A stretch of DNA of 64,000 nucleotides. Origin: Bolinopsis microptera. Taxonomy: Eukaryota; Ctenophora; Tentaculata; Lobata; Bolinopsidae. How positions within the stretch are numbered: position 1 is the first letter of the stretch; each line of letters opens with the position of its first letter. Position numbers and translations under genes: made by a program. Below the pieces are notes generated by a model. The model did not search any database and was not told where the DNA came from. It saw nothing but the letters and a program-made list of their open reading frames with translations. The stretch is taken from the NCBI RefSeq assembly GCF_026151205.1, contig NC_087078.1, positions 9,130,675-9,194,674 of the forward strand. Direction: 5' to 3'. This document shows positions 2,890-43,310 of this stretch, in pieces.

Positions 2890-3353
2890 ATGACTACAGA
2901 GTATATACCACTCTCCATCCAAGATAAGAATCAGCAAGTGAGAATGAAAGGACACAATCACACTGTTACGACAGTGCTGGTTCTGGCTGAGGAGCTTGAG
3001 GATGATGAGAAGGAACTCCGAGAGTATTACGAGGAATTGTTGAGGTGAGTGTTAACGATTAACCAGATAGTAACCTAGTGACCAGATAGTAACCTAGTAA
3101 CCAGATTGCTTTGCATGAAATGTTACCTAGCACCTCAGAGAGATCTCAGCCCTGACCAAGAGCTTATTATACATGACGGTGAAGTGTTGAGATATGAATT
3201 GTGTGTATTCCAAGGGAGAAAGGTGTGAAGCTACAGGAGGTAGAAATAGAGGAGGGACTGAAAGTGGTGCTAGTGGAGTCTGAGTGGGAGCTGCTGGGCA
3301 AACAAGCAGAGGAATCGAAACTTAGCACGCCAACTGTTGCAGATACATACGAG
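2890..3353 (+). CDS. Anoctamin N-terminal cassette 1 (dimerisation module)
   Basis: There are two exons, 2890-3044 (ATG, ends in phase 2 at GTGAGT) and 3215-3353 (ends in phase 0 at GTGAGT), giving 98 codons. The product contains TVLVLAEELEDDEKELREYY, then EELLREKGVKLQEVEIEEGL, then VVLVESEWELLGKQAEE. This is the order seen in the cytosolic anoctamin dimerisation domain: a strand of VLV type, an acidic helix, then a strand leading into a helix that reads like WEVLxxYAE. No transmembrane exon follows before the next cassette. Either this is an alternative 5' end for the anoctamin core at 32819, with which its donor phase agrees, or it is the surviving front of a broken paralogue. Assignment rests on reading the domain by eye. 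The 5' start is the first ATG after the 20-bp repeats. Confidence 0.65.
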
Positions 3354-3440
3354 GTGAGTGTTACTTAGTAACTTAGAAACCAGATAGTTACCTAGTGACC
3401 AGATAGTTAGTTACCTTAGTTGCCTAGTAACCACGAGTTA
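3054..3440. repeat. GTAACCTAGTGACCAG-type intron repeats
   Basis: Short runs of AGTAACCTAGTAACCAGAT lie on both sides of the second exon of cassette 1. The same unit fills introns of the complete anoctamin gene, for example 39640-39720, 39900-39990 and 40470-40680. Confidence 0.8.
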
Positions 3441-3987
3441 GTTTCTTGCCGGTTATCTACTAGAAGAGAGATCACACAAAGATATCAATAGTTTATTTAT
3501 ATATTGGAATGAGGATCCCCAAAGTAGACTAATATTAAAAGAGGATATTTAATTAAATAATAATTCTTTCAGGGGATTATATATTATATTATTAAATACT
3601 TGAAAGCCCGTGGTCACACTATGCAACTTTTATTTGTTTACCTAATTTGCACGTGGGCGGTCGTACAGACATACAAAAACAATTCTTTGAATTATAATAT
3701 AGATTTGATATTAAATTTCAACTAAACTATTACGGGATCTTGAGATATTTCTAGGAGTATTCCTAACTTCTTGATGTAGTGCAAATTAGGGGATCACACT
3801 CGTCACCTCCAAATAGAATTATTGCAAGAGCAAGAATCACCTAGTTCACGATTCGGAAATTCCTAATGATATGTGCTTGTGTTTAAAATCCGTCAGCAAT
3901 CTAACCCCCCCTACCCTAAGATGAGTAGTGCTTGTTTACCCAAAGCTGGTTGTTTTGACACATTTACCAATGTCGCGTGTCCTATTA

Positions 3988-4027
3988 ACTGAGGCAGCAC
4001 AAGAACTAATGGTTGTAATGCCAACGT
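3988..4027 (+). pseudogene. Relic of a cassette-2-like exon
   Basis: The sequence GAGGCAGCACAAGAACTAAT followed by GGTTGTAATGCCAACG closely matches 9987-10024 in the second exon of cassette 2 (GAGGCAGCACAACAACTAAT, then GGTTGTCATGCCAACC). The matching stretch encodes EAAQELMVVMPT, the end of the dimerisation domain. It is preceded by an in-frame stop (ACTGAG read as TGA in the other frame) and lacks the rest of the exon. It therefore looks like a decayed duplicate, implying that at least one more cassette once existed here. Confidence 0.6.
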
Positions 4028-4128
4028 CCAACCTACGGAATAAGAACAATTCTAATGCCCAAACAAACCACTAATAGACCAGTTACCCAAGTTTGTGTAA
4101 AATTTACACTAAATTACTGGCAGTTTGT

Positions 4129-4866: not shown

Positions 4867-6385
4867 TAAGACCATAGTACTATGGTTGTATTACTACAAT
4901 GCTAAACTATATACTACTATAGTATATAGTTTAGTAATGATTACAACATTACATTTATAATTGAGTATTATGTAACGCGATGGAAATATTTTAAGCGGGT
5001 AATATCCTGTCCAAACCCAGGATACATAACATGAAGACGTTGTTGTAACTTTGTATGAAAAGCATTAATATACTATATAGTATACTATATTCCACTACTC
5101 CAGATGCAATGTGTAAACCAAGACGGAGTTCTAGAACTTTATGTCATATTTTGTTTTTGTTTAAAAGTACAGAGCCTCATCACACTTCTACTTCCAATCT
5201 TTTACTTTCTGTTTTATACTTAATTGTAGTAGTTTCGTACTCTCATTGACATGTACTCTATTTCTGAACCAGAAATAGTAAAGAAAAAACTCTGGTGACC
5301 TAATTTTGTTTCCGTTTTAATTTAAAGTTTCAATTCTGAGTTTTCTTTCGGATAAGTTCAGAATTTATCGTTTTATGTAGACTGATTCTTCCTGTTCTAA
5401 CAATGAACCGGATCAGACTGTTAAGTGTTAACCCCCCTCTGTTGATAACATTATTCAGACGATAACGCGATTATTCATTCTTATTGCACCTACAGAATGT
5501 GCAAATTGCAATATTCAATTTCAGGTGTAATTGTATCTGTGATAACACTAAATATCACTGCTCTGTCATGATCAGAATACTTAAGTTATTTAGTTATTTT
5601 TAAACCTATGACATTATACACATTCAAGATCTAAGAACGTTAAAATATTAATAACAGCCTCAAGATAATCGAGATAAAAAAGTTAAAGTTAGATGCTACC
5701 ACACACCGGGTGTCTTGATATATATTTTATGGTATATATGAAATATGATACCTAGTTTAACGAACACTTAAATTGATTTATATCACCATCTGGGACACAG
5801 GTATTTATAATCGAAATCATGTATAAGAAAGAGATGTGGGATGTGAGCCAGTATAATAGTGTCTGGTTTCTGTGTGCTTTGAATATTACCCTCTTGGTAA
5901 CCTTAATGCTTCTTTTTAAACACATAAACTTGTCACTAACAAAGTTAACAGTTACATAATATAATAATATTTAGGTTTGTTGTGTCTATGTTAGGTTGAT
6001 AATTATGAAGTGTTGGAACTCCGAAATAGGTTAAATCTAATCATCAGTGTCCCGTTAGGGCGCTATTATGGAGAAGAGAGGTCAATTCAGACTAAGCACT
6101 AGATAATGTATTTGAGTTTACAGTTATCTGCGTGTGTTGAATATTGTACACTACATATTTAGCATACATATATCCTACATAATTCAGCTGTTGAATAGTA
6201 TTGAGCCCCTTTATGTTTAGCACCCTTTTTTCTTAAATTGTTAGAGGTTCGTCAATAATCTGCTTATTACATGACCAGATGTTGTAAGTAAGTTCCTAGA
6301 GGGATCAAGATTAGGCTGGTAATTACATCAGAACTTTAAAAGGAATATTTAGCGGCGTAGTTCACGGCGTATTATTATTATTGAT
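4867..6385. other. AT-rich stretch without recognised gene
   Basis: Only short open frames without domain or splice support were seen. Near 4905-4935 there is a small palindrome, AAACTATATACTACTATAGT and its mirror, of unclear meaning. Confidence 0.5.
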
Positions 6386-6389
6386 CATG

Positions 6390-8549
6390 ATATATATACA
6401 TATCACCGGAGACTCGCGGGCGGAACAAAATATTGCACGCGCACGCGCGTGCAATATTTCATATGTCCCCGAGGGCGCTAGCCCGAGGAGGACATATTTT
6501 CGTATAGCACGGAGGGCCCATCGGGCCCGAGTGCTATACGATTTTTCCGCCCGCAGGTCGAGGTGATGTGGATTATATCCACCAGCGGGCGTATTACAGT
6601 TAATATATAATTTTATAAATAAACAATGGAGCTTGTATAAAAGTCAACTCTAGAAAAGGTCACCACTAATTGTTGTAACCATGGTAACACGTCATTTGTT
6701 CAATGTAAGCCAATCATAAAGGGGTGTGTCGTATATAGGGGCTGGAGATGCACTGCATTCCTGGGCCGTGGGAATAATGAATGTAATGTCAGTGACGATG
6801 AATATCAATAATATAGGGTGACCGATTATAGTGCTGATGTCTATTATGTAGTGTGTTATAATAACTTTGATATAACTCAAAGTATCATGTCATCTGCTCA
6901 CGAGCTGCATGATCCTACCGGACACAAAAATAAAATGTATATATAGTCAGTGTAATAAGGAATTTCACAAGGAGACGATACAGAAACTGAAAATATTTTA
7001 GAGAACTCCGGGCTATATTGCTACTGGTCAAATTAAATGTCACTTGTTAACGGGCTATATCATGAGCGGGCTGTAAAGATATCGGGCCCTTTTACAGCGG
7101 GCTGGTGAGAGCCCGCTATGCGAAAAAGCGCACGCTGGTGGATATATATACATATCACCGGAGACTCGCGGGCGGAACAAAATATTGCACGCGCACGCGC
7201 GTGCAATATTCAGCGTATTACAGTTAATATATAATTTTATAAATAAACAATGGAGCTTGTATAAAAGTCAACTCTAGAAAAGGTCGCCACTAATTGTTGT
7301 AACCATGGTAACACGTCACGTGTGTCGTATAACTATATAGGGGCTGGAGATGCACTGCATTCCTGGGCCGTGGGAATAATGAATGTAATGTCAGTGACGA
7401 TGAATATCAATAATATAGGGGGATTATAGTGCTGATGTGTATTATGTAGTGTGTTATAATAACTTTGATATAAATCAAAGTATCATGTCATCTGCTCACG
7501 AGCTGCATGAGCAGCCCTACCGGACACAAAAATAAAATGTATGTAATATAGTCAGAGTTGAAAAATACGTGAGATAAATTTTTTTCAGTGTAATAAGGAA
7601 TTTCACATGGAGACGATACAGAAACTGAAAATATTTTAGAGAACTCCGGGCTATATTGCTACTGGTCAAATTAAATGTCACTTGTTAGCGGGCTATATCA
7701 TGAGCGGGCTGTAGAGATATCGGGCCCTTTGACAGCGGGCTGGTGAGAGCCCGCTATGCGAAAAAGCGCACGCTGGTGGATATATATACATATCACCGGA
7801 GACTCGCGGGCGGAACAAAATATTGCACGCGCACGCGCGTGCAATATTTCATATGTCCCCGAGGGCGCTAGCCCGAGGAGGACATATTTTCGTATAGCAC
7901 GGAGGGCCCATCGGGCCCGAGTGCTATACGATTTTTCCGCCCGCGGGTCGAGGTGATGTGGATTATATCCACCAGCGGGCGTATTACAGTTAATATATAA
8001 TTTTATAAATAAACAATGGAGCTTGTATAAAAGTCAACTCTAGAAAAGGTCGCCACTAATTGTTGTAACCATGGTAACACGTCACGTGTGTCGTATAACT
8101 ATATAGGGGCTGGAGATGCACTGCATTCCTGGGCCGTGGGAATAATGAATGTAATGTCAGTGACGATGAATATCAATAATATAGGGGGATTATAGTGCTG
8201 ATGTGTATTATGTAGTGTGTTATAATAACTTTGATATAAATCAAAGTATCATGTCATCTGCTCACGAGCTGCATGAGCAGCCCTACCGGACACAAAAATA
8301 AAATGTATGTAATATAGTCAGAGTTGAAAAATACGTGAGATAATTTTTTTCAGTGTAATAAGGAATTTCACATGGAGACGATACAGAAACTGAAAATATT
8401 TTAGAGAACTCCGGGCTATATTGCTACTGGTCAAATTAAATGTCACTTGTTAGCGGGCTATATCATGAGCGGGCTGTAGAGATATCGGGCCCTTTGACAG
8501 CGGGCTGGTGAGAGCCCGCTATGCGAAAAAGCGCACGCTGGTGGATATA
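6390..8549 (+). repeat. Tandem array of multi-hairpin repeats
   Basis: There are three direct units, at about 6390-7129, 7130-7770 and 7771-8549. The complete form, best seen at 7771-7977, has an outer stem (CGCTGGTGGATATA with TATATCCACCAGCG). Inside it is a second stem (GACTCGCGGGCGGAA at 7801 with its near complement at 7935). Within that stand three perfect or near-perfect hairpins at 7819-7848, 7851-7887 and 7891-7930. The middle unit has lost the second and third hairpins. The array ends with another copy of the outer-stem half at 8531-8549. The short open frames through it are by-products of the repeat. Confidence 0.85.
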
Positions 8550-9439: not shown

Positions 9440-9490
9440 AGTCTTATCTACTCCCGAAAGAAGACAATCCTAGCAGAAGGCAGGTCTCAG

Positions 9491-10054
9491 AGTCTACTGT
9501 TGCCTAGCAACACACAGAGGAACTACAACTACAAGCCTCCAGGGGGAATGGCACTGTATCCCAATATCAACCTCCCTCTAGCAGAGATGATGTATGGGAG
9601 ACAGAACTGGTCACTAGTTGTGCTCATTAATGCCCCTGAGGATGATCTTAGTGATAAAGGTGATTGGTTACAGTCTTATTTCACTATTTACTAAGTTATT
9701 TTGCACAATAATCCTAGAATATCTTTCAATTTTACGAGTATTTTATAAAGGTTGTTTCAGATACCGTTCTTTTCATTAAAGCAACTATTTCTATCACGTG
9801 TCACCATGGTAACACGTGACCATGCTATCACGTGTCACCATGTTAACAAGTGACTCCCCCAAGCTGCGGATCTAAAGCAAGAGTTCCTAGAAAAGCTAGA
9901 CGAGAAGAAGCTAAAAAAGTTTGACTTTGATTTGGATGATTACAAAAAGGCTACTGCTATAGAAGCGGATATAGAACAACTAGCGGAGGCAGCACAACAA
10001 CTAATGGTTGTCATGCCAACCAAGCTGGGATACAACACTGATTCCCTCGATCAG
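9491..10054 (+). CDS. Anoctamin N-terminal cassette 2 (5' end uncertain)
   Basis: The two exons are roughly 9491-9659 (phase 1 end, donor GTGATT) and 9864-10054 (phase 0 end, donor GTTTAG). The frame is open upstream to 9440, and AG before 9491 is a plausible acceptor, so a further 5' exon may exist. An internal ATG at 9548 is another possible start. The product has NWSLVVLINAPEDDL, matching the first strand of the anoctamin dimerisation domain. It continues with an acidic/lysine-rich helix (FLEKLDEKKLKKFDFDLDDY) and IEQLAEAAQQLMVVMPTKLG, which corresponds to the WEVLxxYAE...RMP segment. The split codon across the intron is consistent. No core exons follow. Donors are weaker than in the other cassettes. 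Confidence 0.5.
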
Positions 10055-11313: not shown

Positions 11314-12035
11314 ATGACGGAACACGAGGATGATGAGTTGGAGGAGATCGTGTGCCAGAGTACAGAGCCTAAAACTGTTCCTTCCCCCGGATCTGTACCT
11401 CCTAAGGCTCAGTCACACGCTTTCGGTAAGTGTTTTTGTTATGCCTTTCTTTGTTATGTGTTTTTTAATCAAATACTAGTCGCACATTTTATCACATTTT
11501 GGCGAACGAAGAATACTTAAAGTCTATCACCCAGGGTTACCCCAATAATGCAAATGTATCACTCCTTGTCCAGGGCTAGGAATGTATGACGCAGAACAAG
11601 TGAACTACTCTAACCCGTCTGTAATTCTGTGTTGTCGGCAGAACACTAAGCCATTGTTGTTCCAGAGGAGAATGGAGTGGGAGCTAAACTTAATGAGGAA
11701 ACACGGGGCTGACATTCAGTACCTCTCATCAGGTGAGGAAACAGTGTTCCATTTATAACCATATAAGGTAACAGTACCATATAAGGTAACACTACAATAT
11801 AAGGTAACACTACCATATAAGGTAACACTACCATATAAGGTAACACTACCAAGGTAACACTACCTTATAGGGTAATATTACCAAGGTAACACTACCATAT
11901 AAGGTAATAGAAGGTTGTTCCTCAGGTGCGGACACGTATGTCCTAATATGGTTCCCATATGAGTCCCTTGGTCGCACAGCAGAGGAGCGAGTGTTCGCTA
12001 TGCCAGTTATCACCCCTGCTGATATCTTTACACCA
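11314..12035 (+). CDS. Anoctamin N-terminal cassette 3
   Basis: There are three exons, 11314-11425 (ATG, phase 1), 11574-11732 (phase 1) and 11926-12035 (phase 0), with exactly compatible junctions and 127 codons in total. The first exon is acidic and proline-rich (MTEHEDDELEEIV). The second gives NPSVILCCRQNT and RRMEWELNLMRKHGADIQYL, matching the VLV strand and the FExNLRxxGL helix of anoctamin dimerisation domains. The third gives DTYVLIWFPYESLGRTAEER then VFAMPVITPADI, close to the family's APWEVLxxYAEExxxxMPI segment. The last donor is GTTAGT. No transmembrane exon was found between here and 18332. Confidence 0.65.
11748..11912. repeat. 18-bp minisatellite with CCATATAAGG
   Basis: Units of CCATATAAGGTAACACTA are repeated about eight times with small changes, within the second intron of cassette 3. 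It belongs to the same sequence class as the larger array at 12914-13508. Confidence 0.85.
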
Positions 12036-12913
12036 GTTAGTATTCCTTAAAAGATATAATGTATTGCCTGTTATCACTAATGTCTTTACTCCTGAAGTAA
12101 GTGTAAACATTTAACTTTATTATCTTATCTCAGATAATACTCGCATACCAATTATGTGGTCTTAAAAAATACTTAATTTGTGCTTAATTTAAGTACGGAT
12201 TATCCCACTGGGTTAACAAGCGCTAAATAAAGTAAAAGACTTCCATCACATGTTGTAGAAGGAAACAGCAATTTAATGCACCAACTATTGCTGACAGTAG
12301 TGAATTAGCCAGTAGTATTATAGCAACCATCATAACTACCTAGAAAGAAGCAGTAGGATACAGGATTGTGTGAAGCTGTGGTAATGGAGGAGGGGCCAGG
12401 GGGTTCCAATAGCTATATTCCCATTATCACAGCGATGGAAGCTGTTGTTCTTGTTGTTATGACATCGCTAAATGTCGAATTAATTTTAAATATATTTTGT
12501 TAGGCTACTAAAACAGAGACATCCCCAACTTGCTAATCTGCCTGTAGAAGACCACAGAAGATCACACAATACTAAAAGAGCCCCCCCCCCCCCCTGGCTC
12601 TTTCCCCTCTCCTGTGAATGCTAATTTCCTCAGACCCCATTTCCTGTTCATGTCAGCCTTGTTATTACTGGATTGAGATCTCAGTAATATTATAGCAGTG
12701 TGTGCTCTTGTAACCATGGTAACCTTGTTTGCTGCTCTTGTAACCATGGTAACCTTCTCTTGTTTGCTGTTATTTTCTGAATCTGTTGTCTTGAAGTATT
12801 TACTTCGTGTTTGAGGTTTTCTGACAGAAGCAAAACTAAGACAAACTAACAGTGACAAACACACACAAAAACAACAAGTCACACACAATATTTCACTACT
12901 GTAACAGGCCATT
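12036..12913. other. Stretch without recognised gene
   Basis: It contains a C tract at 12581-12594 and two copies of CTTGTAACCATGGTAACCTT near 12710-12755. Open frames continuing into the minisatellite to the right are repeat artefacts. Confidence 0.5.
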
Positions 12914-13508
12914 AACCCTACCATATAAGGCAATGGTAACCCTACCATATAAGGAAATAGTAACCCTACCATATAAGGCAATGGTAACCCTACCATATAA
13001 GGCAATGGTAACCCTACCATATAAGGCAATGGTAACCCTGCCATATAGGGCAACAGTAACCCTGCCATATAAGGCAATGGTAGCCCTACCATATAAGGCA
13101 ATAGTAACCTTACCATATAAGGCAATGGTAACCCTACCATATAAGGCAATGGTAACCCTACCATATAAGGCAATGGTAACCCTACCATATAAGGCAATAG
13201 TAACCTTACCATATAAGGCAATGGTAACCCTACCATATAAGGCAATGGTAGCCCTACCATATAAGGCAATGGTAACCCTACCATATAAGGCAATAGTAAC
13301 CTTACCATATAAGGCAATGGTAACCCTACCATATAAGGCAATAGTAACCTTACCATATAAGGCAATGGTAACCCTACCATATAAGGCAATGGTAGCCCTA
13401 CCATATAAGGCAATGGTAACCCTACCATATAAGGCAATGGTAACCCTACCATATAAGGCAATGGTAACCCTACCATATAAGGCAATAGTAACCCTACCAT
13501 ATGAGGCA
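12914..13508. repeat. 24-bp minisatellite, about 25 units, each with a CArG-like box
   Basis: The unit is CCCTACCATATAAGGCAATG followed by GTAA. Units differ by single changes (ATGGTAA, ATAGTAA, TAGCCC). Nearly every unit carries CCATATAAGG, which fits CC(A/T)6GG, the consensus bound by serum response factor. Because 24 is divisible by three, both strands are open across the array and give long repetitive frames that should not be read as proteins. Confidence 0.95.
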
Positions 13509-16500
13509 ATTCTACTGCATGTTTACTCTTCCATATTACATGGTAATGCCCTGCTAGAAAGCAGGATCATTAATAGTTCGGTCATTGACCCACACTAGCA
13601 CTAATGATTATTGATAACATAACAGAAACGTTCTATAGCTGCAAAATATACACAAAAGTACAAAATTTACTACATACATGATTTATAAATGTACACAGAT
13701 GTACAAGTTACTTAATACATCATTTACTTGATGTATAATGTATAATGGCTCTGTAATAGTAATATAGTAATATAGATTATAGGGGGTATCGCACGTGACA
13801 GCAGACCCATTAGCTGCAGCTGATACAGAGAGCTCAATACACACAGTGAATTTGTGGTCGTTGTTTCAGTTGGAGCTTGTAGTATATCTTTATATATTAT
13901 TATACTGTAATGGTCACTAATGGTCACTGTAATGGTCACTGTAATGGTCACTAATGGTTTACTGCTAGAGCAGCACGCTGTCTAACCTCCATATTGTTAT
14001 TCTGATGCACTCTGTTTGTAGTTATCTTTATTGTTACTGTAGTTCCTTCACATTTATATTGTTTACAAGCTTACAGCTAGACCTATATCTCTATCCTACA
14101 CAGCTAGACCTCTATCTCTACCCTATACACAGCTAGACCTCTATCTCTACCCTATACACAGCTGGACCTCTATCTCTATCCTATATAGTTGGTTATTTAT
14201 CTTGATGCACAATGTATTACTCTAAGTTTCACGTGGTTCCATGTGTTGTCACTGAAATAACTGAAATTCATTTTAACAAACGAGAGCTCTCTTTTGTTTA
14301 ATGAATAACTTGGTAATTACACTAACACACGCTCTAGTTGCTCGCTGTGCTATATCTAGTTTCACGTGATATTCTCCCACACGCTGGATTGTTAGCTCTG
14401 TAATGATGTAAACAACAGACACCTGCGCTATCGATAAGAGGAACTCTTCTTCTGTGTTTGCAGCAGAGCTAGCGATGTTGATAGTGATGTTATTATATCC
14501 GGGTCGTATATAGTGAGTTAGTTTTATTTAGAGGTGCATTATGTTTATTTTTGCTGCTGATTTATCTTTAAATTAATATCAACGTATCCCTATAAGCAAC
14601 AAATCCTGATATCGTTTTCATTTGTAGCGAGCCTATCATTTGTTTGATGAATAACACAAGATAACAACAACTAATTTAACAGCTGTTAGAAGCTGTATTG
14701 GCGAATAGTTGTAGAAGCAGCTCTCGTTTCATGCTGTCTAACACACACTATATTTGAGAAGTGGTATGTGGTGTTAACTCTAAAGTGTCATTAGTAGAGG
14801 TAGTATCGTTCATGCAAGCAGTGTGTTTTCTTGTGAGCTACACCTCTATCCTACACAGCACCTCATTTGTAAGGTTCCTCATTTCCTGTTGTTAGGGTAC
14901 TCATTTCCTGTTATAAACCCAAAGCCTAGTTCAAGCCTTGAAAGCTTTATCCTGATTCTCGACTTAAAGGTCTCGTCTAGATGATTTAAAAGATCCTCTT
15001 TTTGGCTTTGAACTAATTTCGTTCTCTTTGATGTGCTCAGAATAAAATGATCAGAAATTTACAGCGATTCCATAATTTGTAATCCAAATAAATGACGCAG
15101 CTAAGCAAGGCATGGACCAGCAAATTTATCTTATTCATCCTCAGCAATTAGTGTATAATTTTGACCGTCTGAATTTTCTCATACTCTTGACTGCTTTTTC
15201 GACCAATCATTTGTATGATGGTGGAATTATCGCCTGCACACTAATAAAACACCCATAATTCGACACCCAATTGTAGAGACTTCTTGAAGCACCATTATTT
15301 CTCTAATACTTGTCTCTTCTGGTTGATCCTTATAGATTGGTGCACTCCATATGATCACTGATCCAGGATACCAATTATTCCTCATCAAGTGTTAATCAGT
15401 CGACAATTTATTTTAATTCCAAGCCGCCTGATAATCTGAACACGGTAAATTGTCGGTACTGTACTAATTTGAGGTGAGGAAGGAGAGTAGCCTAGCAACA
15501 GAGAGAGTAAGAGGTGAAGGTAGATCGTCTTAAATGCTCTCTTGTCTGCTGTCTACAGCTGTCTAGTTTGTCCGTTTGTGCAGCTGCACAGCTGATTAGC
15601 TGAATTTAAGAGCTATATTTCCTGTAATATGGAGATAACTATGGAAATCATACTCTTTTTACACCTGACAGTGTCATAGAACAGCTGGTAATAAACGTAT
15701 AATTGCTGGGATTATTTACTATCATACTTGGCGCTCTGCTTTGACAAGTTGAGTGTGTTGAATGTTGATCCTGATTTCAAATTGTTGGGAGATAATCCGG
15801 ACTAAGTGGTCACACTCGGTTCCACCCGCTATATTCAATAAACGTCCCCCTTATCGGGCAATCAATAAAAACAACAATTTTCCAATTATCATAAGAACGG
15901 CTCACAACCAGGCTATCTTGCACTGACTGTTGACCAGCCTGGTTTCCTATTCACTGACCACTGGTACAATGAATACCTCAATACCTGTCCAAGTGGGAAT
16001 TCTATGATTTAATAACGCAGAATACCTCCAGATTATACAGGCTGATAACCTCCTCTGCAGAGGTTATCCTGGTAAATGAAGTGAATCAGCTCTGTCAAAT
16101 TCCTTTGTGAAGATTTCTCTTACTCTCTTAGTCTACACAACTACCAAGTGCTTTTGTTGTGAGCACTCCAAAACAATCCTCCCCGGGAATGTTATTATTT
16201 TTCTATTGTTCAGTCTGTAGGTTTAATTTGCATGGTATTCAATTTGTAAAGGTATAATGCACTCTCTATCTCTTCAGTCTCTGATGTTTTATTGTTAGAT
16301 CGGCCACGTCCTGAAAAGTATTGTGTTGAATTCAGGAGATTATTCGTCCATGAATTGTTTGATTTTGAAAGTAATTTATTCGTTGGTAGATTTTGTCTGT
16401 TTTGGAGGATAGTAGGATTAAGGATACTCCCTCATATTACTCCTTCATAATATATTTGACTTTTGAGAGTGATAAAGCTATTAATCATTCGTTTCTCACA

Positions 16501-22669: not shown

Positions 22670-22890
22670 GCTGGGTGTGCCTAACTTGCCATCATCACCA
22701 AGACGAGGAACTGAACGCTCTGTTTCTGGACAAACTAAAGGATCAGGGTGCCATTATCACCAAGCTACCCTTTACAAACTCTGATGATCCTTCTTGCCAA
22801 ATGTTAACGATCTCCCTGGAACCGGAGGCTATGCAAAGGGTGGCTGTTAGTGTTAGTTTGAGGATGTCCCTTAAAGAACAGTCTTGTGTG
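22670..22890 (+). CDS. Alternative domain exon B of cassette 5
   Basis: This 221-base exon has AG before it and GTGGGT after it. It encodes WVCLTCHHHQDEELNALFLD, then KLKDQGAIITKL, then MLTISLEPEAMQRVAVSVSL followed by RMSL. It aligns along its length with exon A (TVCLVCAAHKEEEL..., LKEQGAMITKL, LERVATSVHLSMPL). It enters in phase 1 and leaves in phase 0, as exon A does. If A and B were joined, B would be read out of frame and meet TAA at its fifth codon. Use of A and B is therefore mutually exclusive if both are functional. Joined to the 21304 exon it gives 112 codons. Confidence 0.65.
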
Positions 22891-23779: not shown

Positions 23780-23872
23780 TGTATACATTATACCAATGGA
23801 AAGTGGACAATGTATACTGTATAATGTATACTGTATACTGTATAATGTATATTGTATATTGTATACTCTGAC
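23780..23872. repeat. TATACTGTATAATG-type simple repeat
   Basis: AT-rich tandem units of roughly 14 bp lie directly upstream of the ATG of cassette 6. Confidence 0.7.
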
Positions 23873-23878
23873 CCAGAG

Positions 23879-32000: not shown

Positions 32001-35000
32001 CGGAGTGTCCAGACCACAGACTCAGCTCTGCACTGTATCCGCTGCTCTCGCCTCCTCTCTCCCCCCTGCAACCCCTTCACTCGGCCTCCCTGCCCTGCGT
32101 TACCACGTGCTGACATTGTGCTGGTTAACAGTACCGCTCATATCACACACAGTGACTCTCTGTTTAGAGGAGAGTTTGAGGATAACCTGATTGAGGAACT
32201 GGGGGCTACTATACAGAAGATTAAGAGTTATGAGAAGGAGTATGTGTACACAGTGATAGGGGGAGGCTGGGAGTGTCTGGTTGAGAGTGCCGTACAGTTC
32301 CACGTGTCCTGTCCTCTTAACGTCACCAGGACTGCTCAACATAGGGTGAGATAGCACGTGCGTGTTGGTTACTAGGGGATCTAGGCAGTAACCATAGTAA
32401 CCACCTAGTTACCACATAGTTACCATTTAGTAACCTGGAATCGGCCAATAGCACGTCACTTTTGGGTCTTATCTCTTAATAAAACAAACAAAAAATTCGA
32501 TCTAAAATTCCCATTTGATTTGCTGTTTGTTTATTGGGTGTGCTGACTGCTGCGTTGTTTATTTCTGTGTTGCTGGTAGCATGGTTTGGGGATCACTAAT
32601 ATTTGTTTGGGGTTTATCTATTTTATCTTGTAAATTAAGGGGCGGTCTTAACTCTGGTGTCTACTATCAATCAAACTATTTTGTTAAGAAATGTTCCTAT
32701 GGTAAAATTTATGAAATCAAAATGAAATAATGTTCGAGACTCATTTTCCTCACTAACCCATTATATTGTAAAGTTTGATTATATCTATTTTACATTGTTA
32801 ACCAGTGTTTCTTTTCAGATAGAGGATGAAGGAGAGGAGGGTATTATTGATAAGATAACGAGCTTCTTCGAGACTGATCAGGAGGTCGACTATATATCAG
32901 CTCCGTTCAGGTAGGCTTGGTTACCATCTAGTTACTTAGTAACCTAGTAACCAATTACACTCTTAGTTACCAGCTCGTAAGCATAATAACTAATATCTGA
33001 TAATTTAGTAACTACTATTTGGTATCCAAGTAATCAATATAAATTAGTAACCAATAATTTCTAACTAATAATTTCTAACAGATGGGACAAAAAGGAGCTG
33101 TTTGCTGGTATCGAGGATCCGGACACTTTCTTCAGATCTTCTCTCCGATCCTTCCTTGTGAGTTACTTAGTAACATAGAACCTTGTTAGTTACATTTTTT
33201 TAATTCAAAATATTATGCTCAACTTTTTGCTAATTCATCTAATAAGAGTTTCATATTTTCAGACTCATCACATTCTGATACGAACTGACGTCAGCAAAAA
33301 GAAGGACACCTCTGATGGAATCAATATCCGAGGTGAGAACCACAAACGTACACACAAACTTACAAACAGACAAACAGACAAATTCACTGAATGGGTGTTC
33401 TTGAAACATACACTTGATACGATAGACAAATTAACAGACTGGAACACAAGAAAATATTATCACAAACTAAGGTGTCAAGGTACATGACATGCTGTGTTTT
33501 TGTTGTGTTATACACGGTATGACGTCACTTGTACGGTATGACGTCACGTCACATCTAAATATTGTATCCTGTGTTCAGCAGGAAATACTCAAACGAAGGG
33601 AGGAATGAATTCTCTTGGTAGGAGACGGATTCTGGCATTTTTTTATGTCTTTAATTTCCTCGAGAATTGGGTCCCTTTTTTTCCGTCTTAGTTTATTAGA
33701 CAGTCTTTTAGTTTCCAAGTGTCTACCGCGAGCTTTTTGTGTAATTTCCGTGTGTGCCGATTTGTGCCGCCCTCTCTGCTGTTCTCGCGTTTGCGCTCAC
33801 CCACTCCTCAGTGGGCTGTTCACTTGACAGAGATACTGTGGCTGACACTCCCAAAATTTTCTCACTACTGCTCAACCAAAAATCATGCAATCAAAATCAC
33901 TATACACTCACAATCATATAATCAAAACACAATGCTTTGAAACATACTTTTTCTGTTTGAGATTTGGATGTAATGTCCTAAATTATATTTCAAATGTTTA
34001 AAAAGATCAGATTAATTTTCTTAACATCTTAGTCTAGCTTTCCACAAAAATATTAGTAACCTAGTAACCAGTACTGGTAACCATAGTAACCAGTACTGGT
34101 AACCATAGTAACATATAAATGTTAACTCTGGAGGTGAGACACCAACAAATCAGTTTCCATTATTGACCAATCGAACCGGGGGTGATGCAACGTCAATTAA
34201 TGTCAGTATTCCATAAAAACCCCAAACTGACATTGACATTAATTGACATTAATTGACATTAATTGACATTAATTGACATTAATTTGTCTTGAAATTTGAG
34301 ATTATCATTATTCGATATATATTCAAGATATTCACGTCTATCATGTAAGTTAGACCGTTTCAAAAAAACAAAGTCCTTGAATAATTATGAGTATGTTCTT
34401 ATCTGTTGATCCTTAGGTTCAAAGACCACCAAAAAAAATTTCAGCTTCCAACTCTTCCATCTTCGGTCCCCACCGGCCACGCCCATATTTTATTGGTTTC
34501 TTATACAGGTAAAATATTTAGAATCGGCTTTTTTAGTATGAAGGAGTAATGTTAGCTGTTTAAGATTCGTTATTCAAATATAAATGTCATTAAGGCATTT
34601 CGTTTAATGTGGGTTCTAAATTCTGATGATGTTGAGAACCACGCCCTTGGATGGCCACGCCCATTTAAGAAAATTAAATTTCGGAAAACCGTATTATTTT
34701 AGTTTTATTGTTTAATGATCTGAATTTTTTCACATTTCCATATGTGATAGTAGTGAATAAATTGATGATATAAACGTTCTAAAGTGCTAAAAATATGGTA
34801 GAACTACATAATCTCTGGTCGAAAAATATCGTGTCAATTAATGTCAGTATTCCAAAATTTTGTAAAACTGACATTGACATTAATTGACATTAATTGACAT
34901 AAATTGACATTAATTGACATTAATTGACATTAATTGACGTTGCATCACCCCCATCGAACCCCAGAATCACTGCCACGTGCCGACCCTCCCCACCAGAATC

Positions 35001-37432
35001 CACATCTGCTGTCATAACTGTTATCTTCTTTATATATTATATATATATAATATATATATTATATATCTTCTTTATATATATCTTTTCTAAAGAGTGCTCT
35101 GTTTGTTTTATCTGCTTTAACTTAAATGTCTTAAAATTTATAGCTTTTAATTATTTTGTTACTTTTTAATCATTTTGTTACCTTGGCAATATAATTACCT
35201 TATTGACCACCATCTAGTAACTTGGTGACTAATACTAGTAACTTATTAACCAGTATTTGTAACTTAGTAATCAGTATTAGGGACCTAGTTACCAGAATTG
35301 GTAACTGAATAACCATTAGCAGTATCCTAGTGACCAGTACTGGTAACTTAGTAACCAGTATTAGTAACCTAGTAACGCCCCAGGTTTGAACTACCTGAAG
35401 CTGAAAGGAGTCTACACTGACGTGTTTATTTTACACGACAGACCCTCTACACTGCACAGAAGAAAGGCTTTCAAAGAAGAGGACGAAGATTCGGTACCTG
35501 ATATTTTACTTGCTAATTAATTAATTAAAGAATTATTTAATTTGAATAATAAAATAATTTGGGTTGCTAATTAATTTAGATTATCAACTGATGATATTCC
35601 TAATTATTTACTAACTCTGTCACTTAATGTACAGTTGCTAACAAAGTATTCATATTCTATTATACTATGTAAATTGTAAGTATTCATCATCTGAGTAGTT
35701 CCATTTAGTGTTACAAGCTCTAAATAACAGATATATTATCATATCAGGAAATAGTAAGTAAAATTACGAACGAAGTAAGTGTTAACAAACCAAAAATACC
35801 AAACTAGTACATAAACACTATACCTACGTACTATACCTACGCTGAAAAAAAGAATGTAAAATACTACGCCCTCCTGCAAAGTAAAACAGAAAATTGAATA
35901 ACACGGAGACTTAAAACTTTCTTTTAAAAAATCTATGCAAATGATGATATCATGTAATATAACGTTCCGGTTCTTACCCAAACAAGTGTTCTGCGGAGTT
36001 TATTAACTTATATTCACACTTGTATGCTTATAATATACTACTGAGCTCCGCCACTACTGGACTGCATGAACAGTATCTTGCTGAATAGTAGCAGCAGTAA
36101 TAGTATCTCCTCATTTAATACGCTCGTGATTTCTTAATCAGAATTACTCTTTTCTTTGATAATGTCGCATCCCTCCTTATTTATTGTTTTCAAAACTATT
36201 CGGTGAAACTTCGTCATGTCGTATACCTCGTGTCGTATACCTCGTGTCGTATACCTCGTGTCGTATACCTCGTGTCGTATACCTCGTGTCGTATACCTCG
36301 TGTCGTATACCTCATGTCGTATACCTCGTTTCGTATACCTCATGTCGTATACCTCGTGTCGTATACCTCGTGTCGTATACTTCATGTCGTATACCTCGTG
36401 TTGTATACCTCATTCCTGTAATAACTAACTTTCTATTTACTAATTAGAAACCACAAACCGGTATTAGTAACCCGGTTACTGGTAACCTAGTAACCAGTAT
36501 TAGCAACTTAGTAACCAGTATTAGTAACTTAGTAACCAGTCAGTAACCTAGCAACTTTGGCAGAAAGTTGTGGACCCCAGAGCTGAGCTATGGAGCAGTT
36601 GGAAACTTTGGTACAAATTCCAACCCCTCTGGAAAATACGGAACTATTTTGGAGAGAAAATAGCTTTTTACTTTGCTTGGATAGGTGAGTGTTATGTTTT
36701 TACAATACATTATACATTGTACATTGTATAACAAGTTTGATAGTTCAGTATTATCAGGAATTTAAAAGTCGTTTTAACGACTTTTAAATACTGGCCAAGC
36801 CTCTTTTTTAGTAACCTTGTAACGACTATACCCCCTCAGAACTTTACATATTGACGCTCATCGTCCCCACTATATTCGGCATCGTCTCTTTTATCTACGG
36901 AATCAGCTACTCAGGAAAAGGTGTCAGCCTAGACGAGGAGAACGTCACAACGGCTCTGTACAACGCGTTTACAATCTTCAATAATCCTCTTACTCCCTGG
37001 TTCTCTCTAGCTCTCTGTATCTGGGGGACTCTCTTTGTGGAACAATGGAAACGGAGGAGGTACTGTTGGGTTATCATTTGTTTTGTTAAATCTTGTAAGA
37101 TCGTTCAAGAATGTAAATTTGGTGGCCTGCATATTTTATCATTAAAGTAAAGGATACATTGAATTGAAGTATCACCCCAATGAATATAGTAACCATAGTA
37201 ACTATAATAATTAATAACCAGCAACCATAGTAGTAACCCATTTAACTATAATAACCAGTTACCATAGTAGTAACCTTAGTAACTTCTCCTTAGTAACTCC
37301 CTCAAGTACGAGTGGGATGTGAGCAACTTTGAACAACTTGAACCAGACAGACCACAATTCTACGGTAAGTTTTAATTCTCAATTGTTACTATGTAGTTAT
37401 GTAAGATGTTTAATTGTCATTTATCTGCCCCG

Positions 37433-37486
<54 letters not shown>

Positions 37487-40400
37487 GTTATATAACCCCT
37501 CATCTCAGGAAGTAAGACGAGAAAGAACCCTATAACTGAGGAGGAGGAGTGGTACTACCCATTCTACAGACTCTACCTCAAGATCTCCTTCTCTGTACTC
37601 ACTATCGCCTTTATGGTGTTCCTTGTTATGGCTTCTACTGTGGGTGAGTAGTTTCACGTGACCATCGCAACCCGCTATATAAAGTCATGTAACCATAGCA
37701 ACACTACCATATAAGGTTATATTACCATGGTAACCCCATTAAAACACTACTATCAAGACAATTGAAGTCACCTCCCCACCAGTAGTCAAATATATTTGTA
37801 ATTAAGTTCTATTTGATCACGTGACCTTGCACCACGTGACAATTTGATTGTAACCATGGTAACTGTATTTGTATTGTCAGGTGTTATCGTGTTCAGGACT
37901 GCCTTCAACGCTGGAAACTACCTGGCCAGTCTTCCAGTTAGGGAAAGTTATGAAACCGATGCGGCGTTTGAGGCTGCTACGGCTCTGTCTAAAGATAATA
38001 ACGCTCTCTACACATCCGTTCTGTCTTCTGTTCTCAACGCACTGGCTATTATGTTCCTGGGATTTGTGAGTATAACTTTCCTTTTATATCCTTATATGGT
38101 CATACAGGGTGAATGGTATATCAAATGATGGAGTAGTTCGCTGTTTATTAGTCTCATGGTTGAAATACTGATAGTTAGATAATATCCGGTTGGAAGAGAC
38201 AAGGACAAATGAAACAGGAAGTTAGGAATGTAGGCAAATTTTCGGCGTCTTCAGGCTAAAACTGGTACAAATGTTAGTATACAATTATAAATGGTTCTAC
38301 ACTTGTTAAAATGCTAAATTAAAATTACACACACTGAATACAGGTTACATCAAATAGTATTATATTTTAAAAGGTTTATAAATTTGGTTTTCGTAATTAT
38401 ATTTATTTAGGACGTTACAGAAGGAATTGATTTAATGTAGTTGAAGGAGTCCTAACCCTCCTCACGTCCATAAATATAGTTTTCTTTGCATCATATATTA
38501 CATATTAAATGGTGATGTACACACGTTTTACACTCTGTCCGAGTACATGATATCTACCGAACATGAGGGTCGTGTGCTATTTGTTTAAATTTGTCTCTGA
38601 ATATTTTGTAAAAGAAATCACTTAAGCTTCTCACACTCTTCCTTATTATTGATACTAGGTTTAAATAAATTAATGTAGTACGCTTCTGTCACTTTTCGTT
38701 AAATGGTGCTATATAAGTTAATTTCTAAAATATCGAAAGAAATGTCTGGATCTAAGTTATTGTGAAATTCTAGGGTGAATGGTGATGTAAAAATGATGTT
38801 GGGATTGTAAAAATGATTTTGAAATTGTGATGGAGCCAATTTTGAAAGATGAATTGCTATTAGTTCATAAACGTTACAAATTTCATTCTTGCTTCTCCTT
38901 TGATGCTGACTCATGATTTGGTTCTTTTTTCAGGTATATGAGAAATTAGCGTATATGCTAACTAACTGGGAGAACCACAGGACGCAAACTGCTTACGATG
39001 ATGCGCTTATTATCAAACTATTCGCATTCCAGTTTGTTAATAACTATGCGTCTCTTATCTACATTGCTTTCTTCAAGGTAAGTGTATTATTATTATTTTT
39101 TACGTTTTTGAATTTTTAACACTTGTTTTTAGATCATGAATACGATGTAGTTACATTGAAACGTCGAGTAATCTCCTTTCCCTAATAAGAGCATTTTTAC
39201 TTGTCGCAACAACCGGGATAAAGATAATTTTACCCAGAATACATTACAACAATGCGACTCATAAATAATACTCCAATCCGGATTTTACATAAGTGTATTA
39301 TATTCTCATTTTCTATTTAAACTGTTTTTTAACGGCTAACTTTATTTCCGTTCTGTGATCTAGTAGAGCAGTGCAGTGGAACCTAGTTATGAACTAGTAA
39401 CCTAGTAACCAGCTGGTTACCTAGTAACCAACCAGTAACCCCATGTCCAATGTTCAGGAGGATGTGTCTGAGAATGGTATGTTCGGAATGTCTTCATGGA
39501 AAGACACCTGCGGATACGAAGATAGCAACGGAGTAAGTTATTTCTAATCTCAAATATTTACGAAGGAGAAAGTAATGCTACTGAACACAATATAATACTT
39601 CCTTTTTTTACTCGAATTATCCTCTACGATTATTGGTAACTAGAAGGTTACCCAGTAACCAGATAGTAACCTTGTAACCAGATAGTAACATAGTAAGTAA
39701 CCAGGTTGTAACCTAGTAAAACCCCACAGAGGCCTCTCTGCTACCCTATGCTGGTGATGCAGGTCGCTGTTCTTATGATCCTGAAACCGATGCCCAAGTT
39801 CTTTAAAGATGTTGTAATTCCTATTCTGCTTACTTTGTGGGCTAAATTCAGAAACAAGTGAGTTATAGAAGCAAGCTAATCTGATAAACTAGTGACTAGC
39901 TATTAGTAACCTAGAAGTCAGCCTAACCTAGTAACCTAGCAACATAGTAACCAGCTAGTAACCAGCTAGTAACCTAGTAACCAGCTCACTAAGTAGTACT
40001 CACAGTGTGCTACCCAGAGACAGTAATGATAATATAGAGGCAGTTAATGCGGGTCCGGAAAAGACAAAAGAGCTGATTGATATTATTGAGGAGGACAGGA
40101 AACTTCTCGCTGGAGATACTGTGAGTTTTAAATATCTTCACAATTTCACGTTATATTTTTTTCCAGATAGCTTTCTGCCGAGATATACGATTAATATATT
40201 GATTCCCGTGATGCCCATATAAGGAGATGTAACACCACGTGATCCCCAGGATTTCACGCTGTCTGAGTACACCGAGAAGTGTATAATGTACGGTATTATC
40301 ATGCTGTTTGGCACTGTGTTCCCTCTAGCGCCTCTAGTCGCTCTTATCTGTAACATGGTGGACGTCAGAGTGGACGGTTACAGAATACTCTGGAAAAACA

Positions 40401-43310
40401 GAAGATACATTGCACAGCGTGCTGAGGATATTGGTTAGTTTCACTTCATTCCTAGTCGTTTCCTGTTTAACCAGCCAGTAACCTAGTAACCAGTTAGTAA
40501 CGTAGTAACCAGCCATTAACCTAGTAACCCGCTAGTAACCAGCCAGTAACTTAGTTACCAGCCAGTAACCTAGTATTAGTAACCAGCCAGTAACCTAGTA
40601 ACCAGCCAGTAACCTAGTAACCAGCTAGTAACCTAGTAACCAGCCCGTAACCTAGTAACTAGCTAGTAACCTAGTAACCATCTCCTACTCAGGTATTTGG
40701 CAGTATATTCTAGAATTTCTGAACATGGTGGGTGTTGTGGTGAACTCTCTTATCTTAGCCTTCACTCTGAAGGGAAGCAGCTCTATTTTATTCAAACCAG
40801 ATGTTGAGGGATCGAACATCAACTCATATGAACCGTGAGTTTTGGAGTTTTTTCTTTGTTTACGCACTAGTAAATATAAAATCAATTTGGAAACAGAATA
40901 TCAGGCCATTAAGTTCATTAAAATTCCAGTTTACAAACGAACCCTTAAAAGGAGACTGAATGAGGTCAATAGATCTGAGTATTCTCTTGCTAATAAGCGT
41001 GTTAAGAAGAGCTGCAAGAAGGACGATGAGAACTGGGCTTTACGGGTTGCAGCCGATCTGGAAACAGCTTCTTCACACGGTCAGCAGAGGGAGGTCTGGC
41101 AGATGATCAAGTCCTTGTCAGGCAAGAAAAGTCAGAAGTCAACTGCTGTCAGAGATAAAACCGAGAAGTTGATTTCTGACCCCGCTGCTCAACGAAAACG
41201 ATGGGGTGAGCACTTCGCTGAACTACTAAACCCGCAGATAGGAGACGTGGACCTTTCAGACCTAGACAGTCTAGAGGTCGCACCATATTTTCCGTATCTG
41301 AGTGATAGTGATATACCCCCTAGCAGAACAGAGATCTCTGAAGCTTTAAAGAGTCTGAAGAATCACAAGAGCCCTGGAATTGATGACATTTCCAACGAAC
41401 AGCTGAAGTATGGGGCTCCTGGTCTTTTAGACAGGCTTGAGAAACTGTTTGCACGTGTATGGGAGACAGAGAATGTGCCAGAGGATTGGGTTAAGGGTAT
41501 CATTGTTATTGTCCCGAAAAAGGGTGATACATCATACTGCTCGAACAACAGGGGCATTACCCTACGCTCCACGGCATCAAAACTCTATCAGATAATAGTG
41601 TTGCGACGGATGAATGCGGGGCTTGAAGAACTGCTCCGAGAGAATCAGTGCGGGTTCAGGAAAAACAGGTCTTGCATAGATCAGATTTATTCGCTCCGTA
41701 CTATTATTCACAACAGCATTGAGTTTAATCTCCCCCTTTACATAAATTTTGTTGACTTTAAAGCGGCATTCGATTCACTTAATCGGGAGTTTATCTGGAA
41801 AGCTTTCAGTCATTATGGCTTGCCTTGTAAATACATTCGCATAATGCAAGCATTCTTTTGCGGCACCGTCAGCGCTGTCAGACATAATGGCGAGCTCTCT
41901 GAGTGGTTTGACGTTACATCTGGTTCTGGGCAGGGGGATATTCAGGGTCCACCTATCTTTAATGTTTGCATCAACCTGCCTGCGCAGCGGGCTGAGGATA
42001 ACAAAGTGTTGTCACACGGGGCAGTGCTGCAGAGAGCTACCACCAGCTCTGGTCAGGATACAGTCGTCCTGGATACTGACTATGCAGATGATTTGGCTAT
42101 CATGGACAACACCAAGGACGGTCTCCAGGAGACAACTGATCTTTTATGCAAGTATGCGGCTCAGGCTGGCCTCAGAATCAATGCGAAGAAAACAGAGGTT
42201 ATGGCCATCGGCAAGAATACATCACAGAGGCCATATACTGAAGCATCAACAGTGGACATTACAGTAGGACACGGCTATCCAGCAAGTCAGCAACTTCACT
42301 TACCTTGGGTCGATTATATCAAGTGATGGGACTATTGACCGGGACTTGTCTGCACGGATCCAGAAAGCCTCAGGAGCATTCAATCAGCTCGGTAATATTT
42401 GGAAGAATCGCAATATCCAAACTAACACCAAAATACGGATATATGTTGCAGCGGTTCTAACAATATTACTTTATGGAAGCGAAGTCTGGAACACTACTTC
42501 AAAGCAACTACATCGCTTCGAAGTTTTTCATCAAAACTGTTTGAGGAGAATCCTTCGAATTAAGTGGTTCCACCGGACGAGCAATGTTCAAGTGTTGGAG
42601 CGGGCAAGAATAAACCCGGTTATAACCTACATCAGTGCCAACCGTCTTCGCTGGTTTGGACATGTTTCTAGAATGCCGGACACCAGGCTACCAAAGTATC
42701 TACTTGATTGGACACCTGCTCACGGCCGAAGATCACGTGGGCGGCCAAGAAAGAATTGGCGAACCTGTGTCCTAGAAGCAGGGACAAAAGGATTTCGCGG
42801 CATGTACGAAATCGACGCAGTAACATTCACAGGAGATCCAGACATTGTATTTGATAAGGTCCGAGAGTTGGCAGGAAACCGAAAGCACTGGAGAGAGATG
42901 ATACGACATAAGCGGCAATTCCTTGGTGCAGGCCACTCGAATGATTGAGGAGACCTTATCAAGTATCAAGTAAGTAGAATGAGGTCTGATTTATTCTTGT
43001 TGTTTGGTTAAAACTCTGCATCTCAGGTGGATGGTAGCGTTTGCATTTGAACACGTGTGTTTTGCACTGAAGTTCATTGTTTCCTACGTTATTCCTGACG
43101 TGCCCAGTGACGTGCAGTTCAAGATGAGAAAGGTACGTGTTTCTCTTTCACTTTCGTTTTGATCGGTTTCGCTTTCATCTATGTCTTTAACTAACTAACC
43201 TGATTTTTATATCTGATTCGCTTCAGGAACAATTCCAAGTAAACCAGCTCTTTGAGAAGGGACCAACTAAGAAGGACAGTACTGGAGCTAACGGTAACCC
43301 TACAGTGTAG
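29064..43310 (+). CDS. Complete anoctamin (TMEM16 family) gene, 19 exons, 1047 residues
   Basis: TMEM16 proteins are dimeric Ca2+-activated chloride channels or lipid scramblases. Exons: 29064-29302, 31499-32345, 32819-32910, 33082-33157, 33263-33332, 35384-35493, 36564-36684, 36840-37059, 37294-37364, 37509-37643, 37881-38065, 38934-39077, 39458-39532, 39730-39857, 40006-40120, 40250-40433, 40693-40834, 43027-43132, 43227-43310. They total 3144 bases and every junction keeps frame. Exons 1-2 give a disordered, Ser/Pro-rich leader, then [23 protein letters not shown] and [17 protein letters not shown] (dimerisation domain). The core shows [127 protein letters not shown] and [20 protein letters not shown], all in family order. 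The first exon is the least certain part: its ATG and split codon fit, but it has no domain. The stop lies inside a GTAACCCTACAGTG repeat, so the last intron-exon limit could differ. Confidence 0.93.
29729..30460. mobile_element. TIR element in intron 1 of the anoctamin gene
   Basis: The left end GGGGGGTTCACCCTGATTTT and the right end AAAAAATCAGGGTGAACCCC are inverted copies of about 25 bp with G/C tracts outside them. The interior, about 700 bp, has no transposase. It contains TATGCCCAAATATGGGCATA, a palindrome also met near 620. Target duplications are not clear. Confidence 0.7.
32346..32440. repeat. AGTAACCACCTAGTTACC repeats at the variable/constant junction
   Basis: The first part of the intron between the dimerisation-domain exon and the first core exon consists of GTAACC/GGTAAC-type units in mixed orientation. 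The same type fills the starts or ends of most later introns (32930-33060, 34055-34110, 35210-35380, 36460-36545, 37185-37290). Confidence 0.75.
34178..34952. mobile_element. 775-bp TIR element with 8-bp target duplication (hAT-like)
   Basis: The ends are GGGGGTGATGCAACGTCAAT and its complement. ATCGAACC stands directly outside both ends (34170-34177 and 34953-34960), a perfect 8-bp duplication as made by hAT-type transposases. Next to each end is a run of TTAATTGACA decamers (34223-34285 and 34872-34938), which forms long subterminal arrays. It lies in intron 5 of the anoctamin gene and encodes no transposase. Confidence 0.85.
35030..35085. repeat. Short AT-rich palindromic repeat in intron 5
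   Basis: TATATATTATATATATATAA and TTCTTTATATATATCTT-type units occupy this stretch. Confidence 0.6.
36214..36415. repeat. 14-bp minisatellite in intron 6
   Basis: GTCGTATACCTCGT is repeated about fourteen times between anoctamin exons 6 and 7, with few changes. Open frames of the [11 protein letters not shown] or [13 protein letters not shown] type, on either strand, are products of this repeat. Confidence 0.92.
37430..37484. repeat. Poly-C tract in intron 9
   Basis: A run of about 50 C interrupted by one G lies some 25 bp before the acceptor of exon 10. A G-rich complementary strand this long is prone to length error in assembly. Confidence 0.9.
38066..38933. other. Anoctamin intron 11
   Basis: An 868-bp intron with no supported coding sequence. 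Small frames on both strands lack splice or domain evidence. Confidence 0.7.
39388..39998. repeat. GTAACCTAGTAACCAG arrays in introns 12-14
   Basis: Blocks at 39388-39440, 39640-39722 and 39900-39993 are made of AGTAACCTAGTAACCAGCT-type units. They directly precede the acceptors of exons 13, 14 and 15, leaving only a short pyrimidine/CAG stretch between repeat and exon. Confidence 0.85.
40466..40683. repeat. 16-bp minisatellite filling intron 16
   Basis: About fourteen units of CCAGTAACCTAGTAACCAGC type occupy almost the whole 259-bp intron between exons 16 and 17. Confidence 0.9.
40857..42990 (+). mobile_element. 5'-truncated LINE (non-LTR reverse transcriptase) in intron 17
   Basis: Two overlapping frames, to 42326 and 42346-42948, encode most of a non-LTR reverse transcriptase. 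In order: a linker ([17 protein letters not shown]), [87 protein letters not shown], the catalytic YADDLAIMD, then after the break [27 protein letters not shown] and [17 protein letters not shown] frameshift lies near 42265-42285, where [19 protein letters not shown] becomes readable in the other frame. No endonuclease domain precedes the reverse transcriptase, so the copy is 5'-truncated and dead. The clade is not certain from this alone. It is in the same direction as the host gene and wholly inside intron 17 (40835-43026). Confidence 0.92.

Follow-up and report, generated by a model that had tools for sequence, protein, structure and literature searches.

What does an anoctamin gene do with nine different beginnings and a single membrane body? 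The question is posed by a locus on C7 of the ctenophore Bolinopsis microptera (genome of 264.65 Mb). The window, which is the whole 64,000-base stretch of DNA under analysis, corresponds to C7:9130675-9194674, and positions given without a prefix are counted from its first base. The locus consists of at least nine N-terminal cassettes on the + strand (M-1, M0 and M1-M7) upstream of one core. M-1 and M0 precede the window, M1-M7 are inside it, and the cassette array together with the core occupies about 63 kb. The locus is very probably a variable/constant anoctamin gene, the cassettes of which provide alternative N-terminal starts on one shared core, and one gene probably builds many protein versions. 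Joins to the core are supported for M1, M3 and M4 by protein models of the same species, and the M1 and M4 kinds also by other data. We infer, as the best account, that the other six modules are used likewise.

The core is complete and is composed of 17 exons (32819-43310) with consistent phases and GT-AG borders. The constant part of 681 residues contains the second portion of the dimerisation domain and the entire PF04547 region. In a Pfam scan of protein P0001, PF16178 (E 3.5e-26) is followed by PF04547 (E 7.1e-124), and both are present in all five scanned proteins. The constant exons are as follows:

32819-32910, 33082-33157, 33263-33332 and 35384-35493, + strand: constant exons 1-4, which complete the dimerisation domain; exact match to NCBI proteins P0001 and P0002
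33579-33617, + strand: optional constant-region exon of 13 codons (39 bases), required for reproducing NCBI isoform X8
36564-43310, + strand: constant exons 5-17, transmembrane core and C-terminus; source of the PF04547 match (E 7.1e-124), identical to P0001 letter for letter

In the alignment, acidic residues of the segments KDVV, EYTE and DVRVD are opposite acidic residues of TMEM16F in helices 6-8 and are candidate calcium-site residues; an asparagine of helix 6 is not kept. No core remnant outside 32819-43310 was detected by tblastn at E < 1 in 224 kb of sequence (the window with 120 kb upstream and 40 kb downstream), where the best other match has E 1.4. The single full transmembrane core proposed in a preliminary description, which had been made from the letters of the window, therefore stands. 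The introns of the core contain repeats. The last large intron (40835-43026) includes reverse-transcriptase-like open frames at 40839-42948, which were named by eye as resembling a long interspersed nuclear element, and repeats of the TAGTAACCAG kind are frequent in the introns at 34-41 kb.

The seven exon groups of the preliminary description were recovered together with the core at its coordinates, on the + strand and with usable splice sites, but the row is longer than the seven modules it had counted, with at least nine. M-1 and M0 were found by a profile scan of the window, 60 kb upstream and 40 kb downstream, and then modelled. The models of M1-M5 and of the main M7 exon were drawn before annotated proteins were consulted. 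Every module contains a candidate start codon, a tail, and the pattern VVLV ... LRxxFxxxLxExG ... ExLxxxAExxxLSMPL, which presumably represents about half of the ferredoxin-like domain of TMEM16 structures. The cassettes and associated exons are, in order:

C7:9111184-9111254, 9111410-9111537 and 9111997-9112091, + strand: module M-1; open, GT-AG, phase 0
C7:9126211-9126884 and 9127112-9127283, + strand: module M0; open, GT-AG, phase 0
2890-3044 and 3215-3353, + strand: module M1; phase-0 end, identical to the N-terminus of NCBI isoform X24, relative in protein P0004
3925-4071, + strand: open frame of a probably decayed M2-like pseudo-exon (LTEAAQELMVVMPT...), with a match at 3985-4029 (tblastn with M2, 80% identity over 15 residues)
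9548-9659 and 9864-10054, + strand: module M2; open, GT-AG, phase 0, start codon uncertain (9491 in the preliminary description)
11314-11425, 11574-11732 and 11926-12035, + strand: module M3; identical to the N-terminus of NCBI isoform X16
18332-18480, 18720-18935 and 19066-19159, + strand: module M4; N-terminus of NCBI isoform X8, relative in Mnemiopsis protein P0005
19501-19569, + strand: optional M4 exon; acceptor and donor both in phase 0, included in NCBI isoform X8 but not in the Mnemiopsis model
21304-21418, + strand: first exon of M5, presumably common to both alternatives; open, GT donor, phase 1
21653-21894, + strand: second exon of M5, copy a; leave-one-out profile E 1.4e-6, Ka/Ks against copy b 0.31
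22670-22890, + strand: second exon of M5, copy b, a diverged duplicate of a; same residue at 38 of 72 aligned codons, whole-codon insertions and deletions
23879-24222 (GC donor), 24393-24544 and 24796-24965, + strand: module M6; open, phase 0, single-sequence profile match 89.2%
29064-29302, + strand: probable first exon of M7; open frame with an ATG, and a donor in phase 2 that fits the 31499 acceptor
31499-32345, + strand: second exon of M7, the module closest to the core; leave-one-out profile E 2e-5, relatives P0121 and P0122

The second-exon copies a and b of M5 look like alternatives. The net charge of the half-domains ranges from -14 (M1) to 0 (M3), and the predicted isoforms are 779-1043 residues long. 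The pseudo-exon at 3925-4071 resembles part of the last M2 exon, is the top non-module profile match in eight of nine leave-one-out scans, and can be read as a sign of module birth and death. Besides it and the nine modules, no profile match with E < 0.5 was found on either strand of the 224 kb, where strong divergence of modules could hide others.

As judged from profile comparisons, the modules as a family are N-terminal half-domains of anoctamins. In one comparison, an alignment of the ten module sequences matched 50 non-ctenophore anoctamin N-halves with 98.0% probability (E 2e-13), against at most 2.2% for eight column-shuffled controls. The match remains at 98.0% if only the seven module sequences absent from NCBI proteins are used. 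Single modules that align more strongly with the anoctamin profile are M0 (96.4%), M6 (89.2%), M1 (85.7%), M3 (82.4%), M5a (63.6%) and M7 (63.5%). In the 224 kb, an hmmsearch scan of 6,174 open frames with the non-ctenophore profile yielded five frames at E <= 3, all of them module exons: M0 (2.8e-5), M6 (0.0046), M3 (0.13), M4 (0.4) and M1 (2.3). Profiles built with one group left out recover that group at E < 0.01 in four of nine cases (M5 1.4e-6, M2 1.8e-5, M7 2e-5 and M1 0.0014). Pairwise alignment strongly links M5a with M5b (z 26.6) and moderately links M1 with M2 (8.4), M3 (7.0) and M7 (6.5). Pfam assigns PF04547 to a piece of the core.

Each module appears to cover roughly the first 90 of the 221 positions of PF16178, as estimated from the start of the match in protein P0003, and the core exons at 32819-35493 would supply the rest. 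The exon groups had been described as complete dimerisation modules; they correspond to the N-terminal part of the domain and not to the whole. At C7:12.15 Mb and at two other anoctamin loci of the genome (L005 and L007), a PF16178 match within one open frame spans the point at which the cassette/core gene is split.

Proteins in which a module is joined to the core are found in the databases. Three clusters of B. microptera proteins, represented by anoctamin-7-like isoforms X24, X16 and X8 and comprising 1, 3 and 24 members, start with M1, M3 and M4 (with the optional M4 exon), respectively, and continue with the core exactly from 32819. Module identity was read from the three cluster representatives of these 28 members. 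The spliced exons of the window reproduce X24 and X16 letter for letter, and X8 once 33579-33617 is included. Protein P0004 (762 residues) is encoded by a contig of 2,580 bases from the Joint Genome Institute, and carries a relative of M1 (46/74 residues) on a core with 588 of 677 residues identical. Its coding sequence leaves fewer than 300 bases of the contig, so that introns cannot fit, and the contig looks like a transcript. The M4 type of join recurs in P0005, a gene model of Mnemiopsis leidyi with a relative of M4 (84/99 residues) joined to the core.

The reading frame is compatible with such joins throughout the array. All ten alternative module ends, of which M5 has two, are in phase 0, as is the core acceptor at 32819, which agrees with the phases noted previously. 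The obligatory acceptors inside the modelled modules are all in phase 1 or 2 (14/14), whereas 9/16 of those in the core are not in phase 0, a difference that is suggestive. Since the module-internal acceptors are in phase 1 or 2, a mistaken cassette-to-cassette join shifts the frame. Of the exons modelled ahead of the core, only the optional M4 exon has a phase-0 acceptor, and this exon is harmless because its two ends are both in phase 0.

In the proposed mechanism, each cassette would give a start codon, a variable tail, and its own version of the initial segment of the cytosolic N-terminal domain. The phase-0 donor of any cassette would be spliced, over up to about 51 kb (from M-1), to the phase-0 acceptor at 32819. 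The constant exons would finish the N-terminal domain and encode the whole membrane body, and the non-zero phases of the internal acceptors might keep the joining of cassettes to the core clean. It is natural to infer that the exchange of this part tunes sensitivity to calcium, calmodulin or lipids, trafficking and localisation, or subunit pairing.

Evidence of conservation or selection comes from M1, M4, M5 and M7. The M5a and M5b copies differ in 38% of their aligned bases, with 27, 15 and 41 differences at codon positions 1, 2 and 3. The ratio of nonsynonymous to synonymous substitution rates (Ka/Ks) is 0.31 at Ks 1.3, and the nonsynonymous proportion of differences (pn) is below the synonymous one (ps) in 2000 of 2000 bootstraps. 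Judged by these codon patterns, there is purifying selection between the M5 copies. Both copies remain stop-free in 234 of 5000 neutral simulations with substitutions only. The M7 relatives P0121 and P0122, from ENA contigs, keep 75/81 and 57/80 residues of the domain and 143/171 and 78/180 of the linker, and they look genomic because they continue past the M7 splice donor in the same way as the window frame (HRVR). The constant half of the domain is identical at 109/116 and 110/116 residues, compared to 479/561 and 472/563 in the rest (Fisher 0.010 and 0.0012). A special conservation of this half-domain, as a fit to many partners, was rejected, since other segments of the core are equally conserved (57/58).

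Several observations weigh against the variable/constant reading. Taken singly, four sequences align more weakly with the anoctamin profile (M-1 32.0%, M4 23.8%, M5b 5.0% and M2 0.2%), and M2 and M5b are linked to anoctamins only via other modules. Leave-one-out profiles miss five of the nine groups at E 0.01 (M-1 0.018, M3 0.043, M0 0.055, M6 0.54 and M4 4.2), and the scores of these five are not clearly above that of the pseudo-exon. Most module pairs are near the shuffled level in pairwise alignment. In nine single module pieces, which did not include all exons, Pfam reports Anoct_dimer once (M7, E 0.077, below the cut-off). The Pfam dimerisation match in P0003 excludes the M4 part, but the corresponding match in Mnemiopsis P0005 extends into it. 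Single modules match weakly. The splice phases are partly inherited through shared intron ancestry and hence not independent, which weakens the argument from them. No promoter word shared by the nine start codons was found upstream of them, as the best 9-mer occurs in 3/9 and 300 random sets give 2-4. Borders are GT-AG at all modelled introns but one, which has a GC donor after 24222 in M6. The "isoform X" names suggest to us that the NCBI models are automatic predictions, the read support of which is not visible. It is possible that some cassettes are intact yet unused.

The joined products cover part of the array, and the earlier proposal of a variable/constant cluster is supported in protein models for M1, M3 and M4. 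None of three protein searches returned the core in combination with M-1, M0, M2, M5, M6 or M7; these searches used as queries the spliced core, pieces of M2, M3, M5, M6 and M7, and pieces of M2, M5a, M7 and M0; M-1 was never itself a query, and the last search was limited to proteins of about 144-458 residues. The second search returned only X16, the M3 protein, and the third returned the two M7 relatives and nothing for M2, M5a and M0. Any core-joined isoform should score high in the spliced-core search. As X24 and X16 cluster apart from X8, isoforms with other modules would probably form their own clusters and be listed there. Isoforms with these six modules are thus probably absent from the searched protein databases.

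These results bear on a mixed array, in which M1, M3, M4 and probably M5 and M7 are working, and some of M-1, M0, M2 and M6 are silent or dying. The restriction of the protein models to M1, M3 and M4, the set of modules with signs of conservation or selection, and the presence of the pseudo-exon speak for such an array. However, M-1, M0, M2 and M6 retain open exons, splice sites and phase-0 ends, and we consider the mixed array possible but doubtful.

A different alternative concerns how a cassette is chosen. Instead of separate promoters, splicing within a single long transcript could select the module, or a leader could be trans-spliced to each one. Ctenophores are known for spliced-leader trans-splicing, and the start codons share no promoter word. 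Nevertheless, every module has a candidate start codon, in M7 through the exon at 29064, an arrangement seen in clusters with promoter choice, UGT1 among them, as outlined in part of PMC3325998, and a choice by splicing seems to us rather unlikely. A start codon for each module argues for a promoter for each module, as in the UGT1 cluster, and by this analogy we lean towards a separate promoter before each cassette as the main means of choice. In ctenophores, CTEP proteins bind an unmethylated GC-rich motif at which enhancer-promoter loops form, according to the accessible sections of PMC12221973, and it is speculation that such loops act at this locus.

The remaining two alternatives fare much worse. 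The preliminary description had named as the competing idea that the exon groups are tandem anoctamin paralogues without their former cores; they would now be relics. The decayed M2-like piece at 3985-4029 shows that pieces die at this locus, and the searches returned joined products for three of the nine modules and not for the other six. However, paralogues with lost cores predict core remains, and none reaches E < 1 in the 224 kb; open exons, splice sites and phase-0 ends are present in all nine modules, and NCBI proteins contain the core together with M1, M3 or M4. We therefore reject this idea as highly improbable. It is equally hard to credit that the joins are gene-prediction artefacts chaining unrelated upstream exons to the core, as the hidden read support of the NCBI models might allow, given that joins of the M1 and M4 kinds recur in other data, in P0004 and in Mnemiopsis P0005.

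Elsewhere in the genome, PF04547 has at least 53 matches in at least about 20 places, according to our own grouping. In a comparison of the constant part with 37 anoctamin loci, the matches outside its own locus are 23-65% identical per segment, and there is no close copy. In one anoctamin locus (L002, C4:11867813-11868904, reverse strand), a 31-residue segment (TEAHDMPSNHRQLLRFYWASFRRWNKHQPLN) is repeated in tandem and in frame, with eight near-identical copies directly before the first membrane helix and within one open frame of 408 codons. A similar anoctamin locus about 1.2 Mb away (L003, C4:13045726-13045950) has two copies of the TEAHDMPSNHRQLLRFYWASFRRWNKHQPLN type. Several anoctamin-core matches are clustered on C11 at about 615-700 kb, possibly as a tandem anoctamin gene family. 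Dispersed repeat copies at 151-456, 6315-6643 and 7698-8033 of the window share open frames on both strands, and tandem arrays with 24-base and 14-base units are located at 12913-13510 and 36217-36411. At about C7:9058750-9064455 (L022-L023), open frames recur every 64 bases over several kilobases, which points to a long tandem array.

The variable/constant anoctamin gene has a known kind of layout, that of UGT1 and the clustered protocadherins, which is new on the anoctamin family within the searched literature. Clustered protocadherins, as far as the partial sources describe them, likewise combine a variable array with constant exons. Protocadherin variable exons encode the outside recognition part, whereas the Bolinopsis cassettes encode a cytosolic N-terminus. 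The vertebrate UGT1 and GCNT2 clusters share with the Bolinopsis gene tandem variable starts, one downstream set of exons, and a variable protein N-terminus, in the available portions of PMC1885805 and PMC3325998; the former describes the layouts of Ugt1, Gcnt2 and Ugt2a as vertebrate-specific. In comparison with these clusters as portrayed there, the Bolinopsis units are cassettes of two or three exons, the join interrupts a single domain, the protein is a member of a channel/scramblase family, and the organism is a ctenophore.

Alternative starts are known in anoctamins. Excerpts of PMC8480199 and PMC8835819 describe segment a of TMEM16A (alternative promoter), long and short N-termini of TMEM16B, and an alternative starting exon of TMEM16F. 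The TMEM16 isoforms in these excerpts have longer or shorter N-termini and optional segments, in contrast to Bolinopsis, where homologous cassettes in a row would replace one another in one part of a domain. The same excerpts place calmodulin-binding sites, an EF-hand-like region and a cluster that binds phosphatidylinositol 4,5-bisphosphate (PIP2) in the mammalian anoctamin N-terminus, link segment a to surface expression, and suggest mixed dimers of TMEM16A splice forms. Our search of the open-access literature returned no anoctamin with alternative first exons or protocadherin-like first exons, and none for a ctenophore alternative first exon. In the accessible text of PMC7003098, TMEM16 occurs as a comparison with TMC and in the title of a reference, and anoctamin is not mentioned in that of PMC12221973.

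A further, tentative and rather improbable extension is an intracellular code of subunit identity. A cell type would pick one or a few of about ten N-termini. As anoctamins are dimers, pairs of versions, up to 55 combinations from ten, would determine how one core responds to calcium or lipids and which partner it takes, with the choice of N-termini possibly made through the enhancer-promoter loops of ctenophores. If true, this code would extend a protocadherin-like variable/constant arrangement to a membrane transport protein, and to a lineage that is regarded as the sister group of the other animals. If the variable/constant gene itself is real, the variable/constant design would have arisen separately on a family of channels and scramblases, and about ten natural N-terminal versions on one core would make the role of the N-terminal domain testable by isoform swap.

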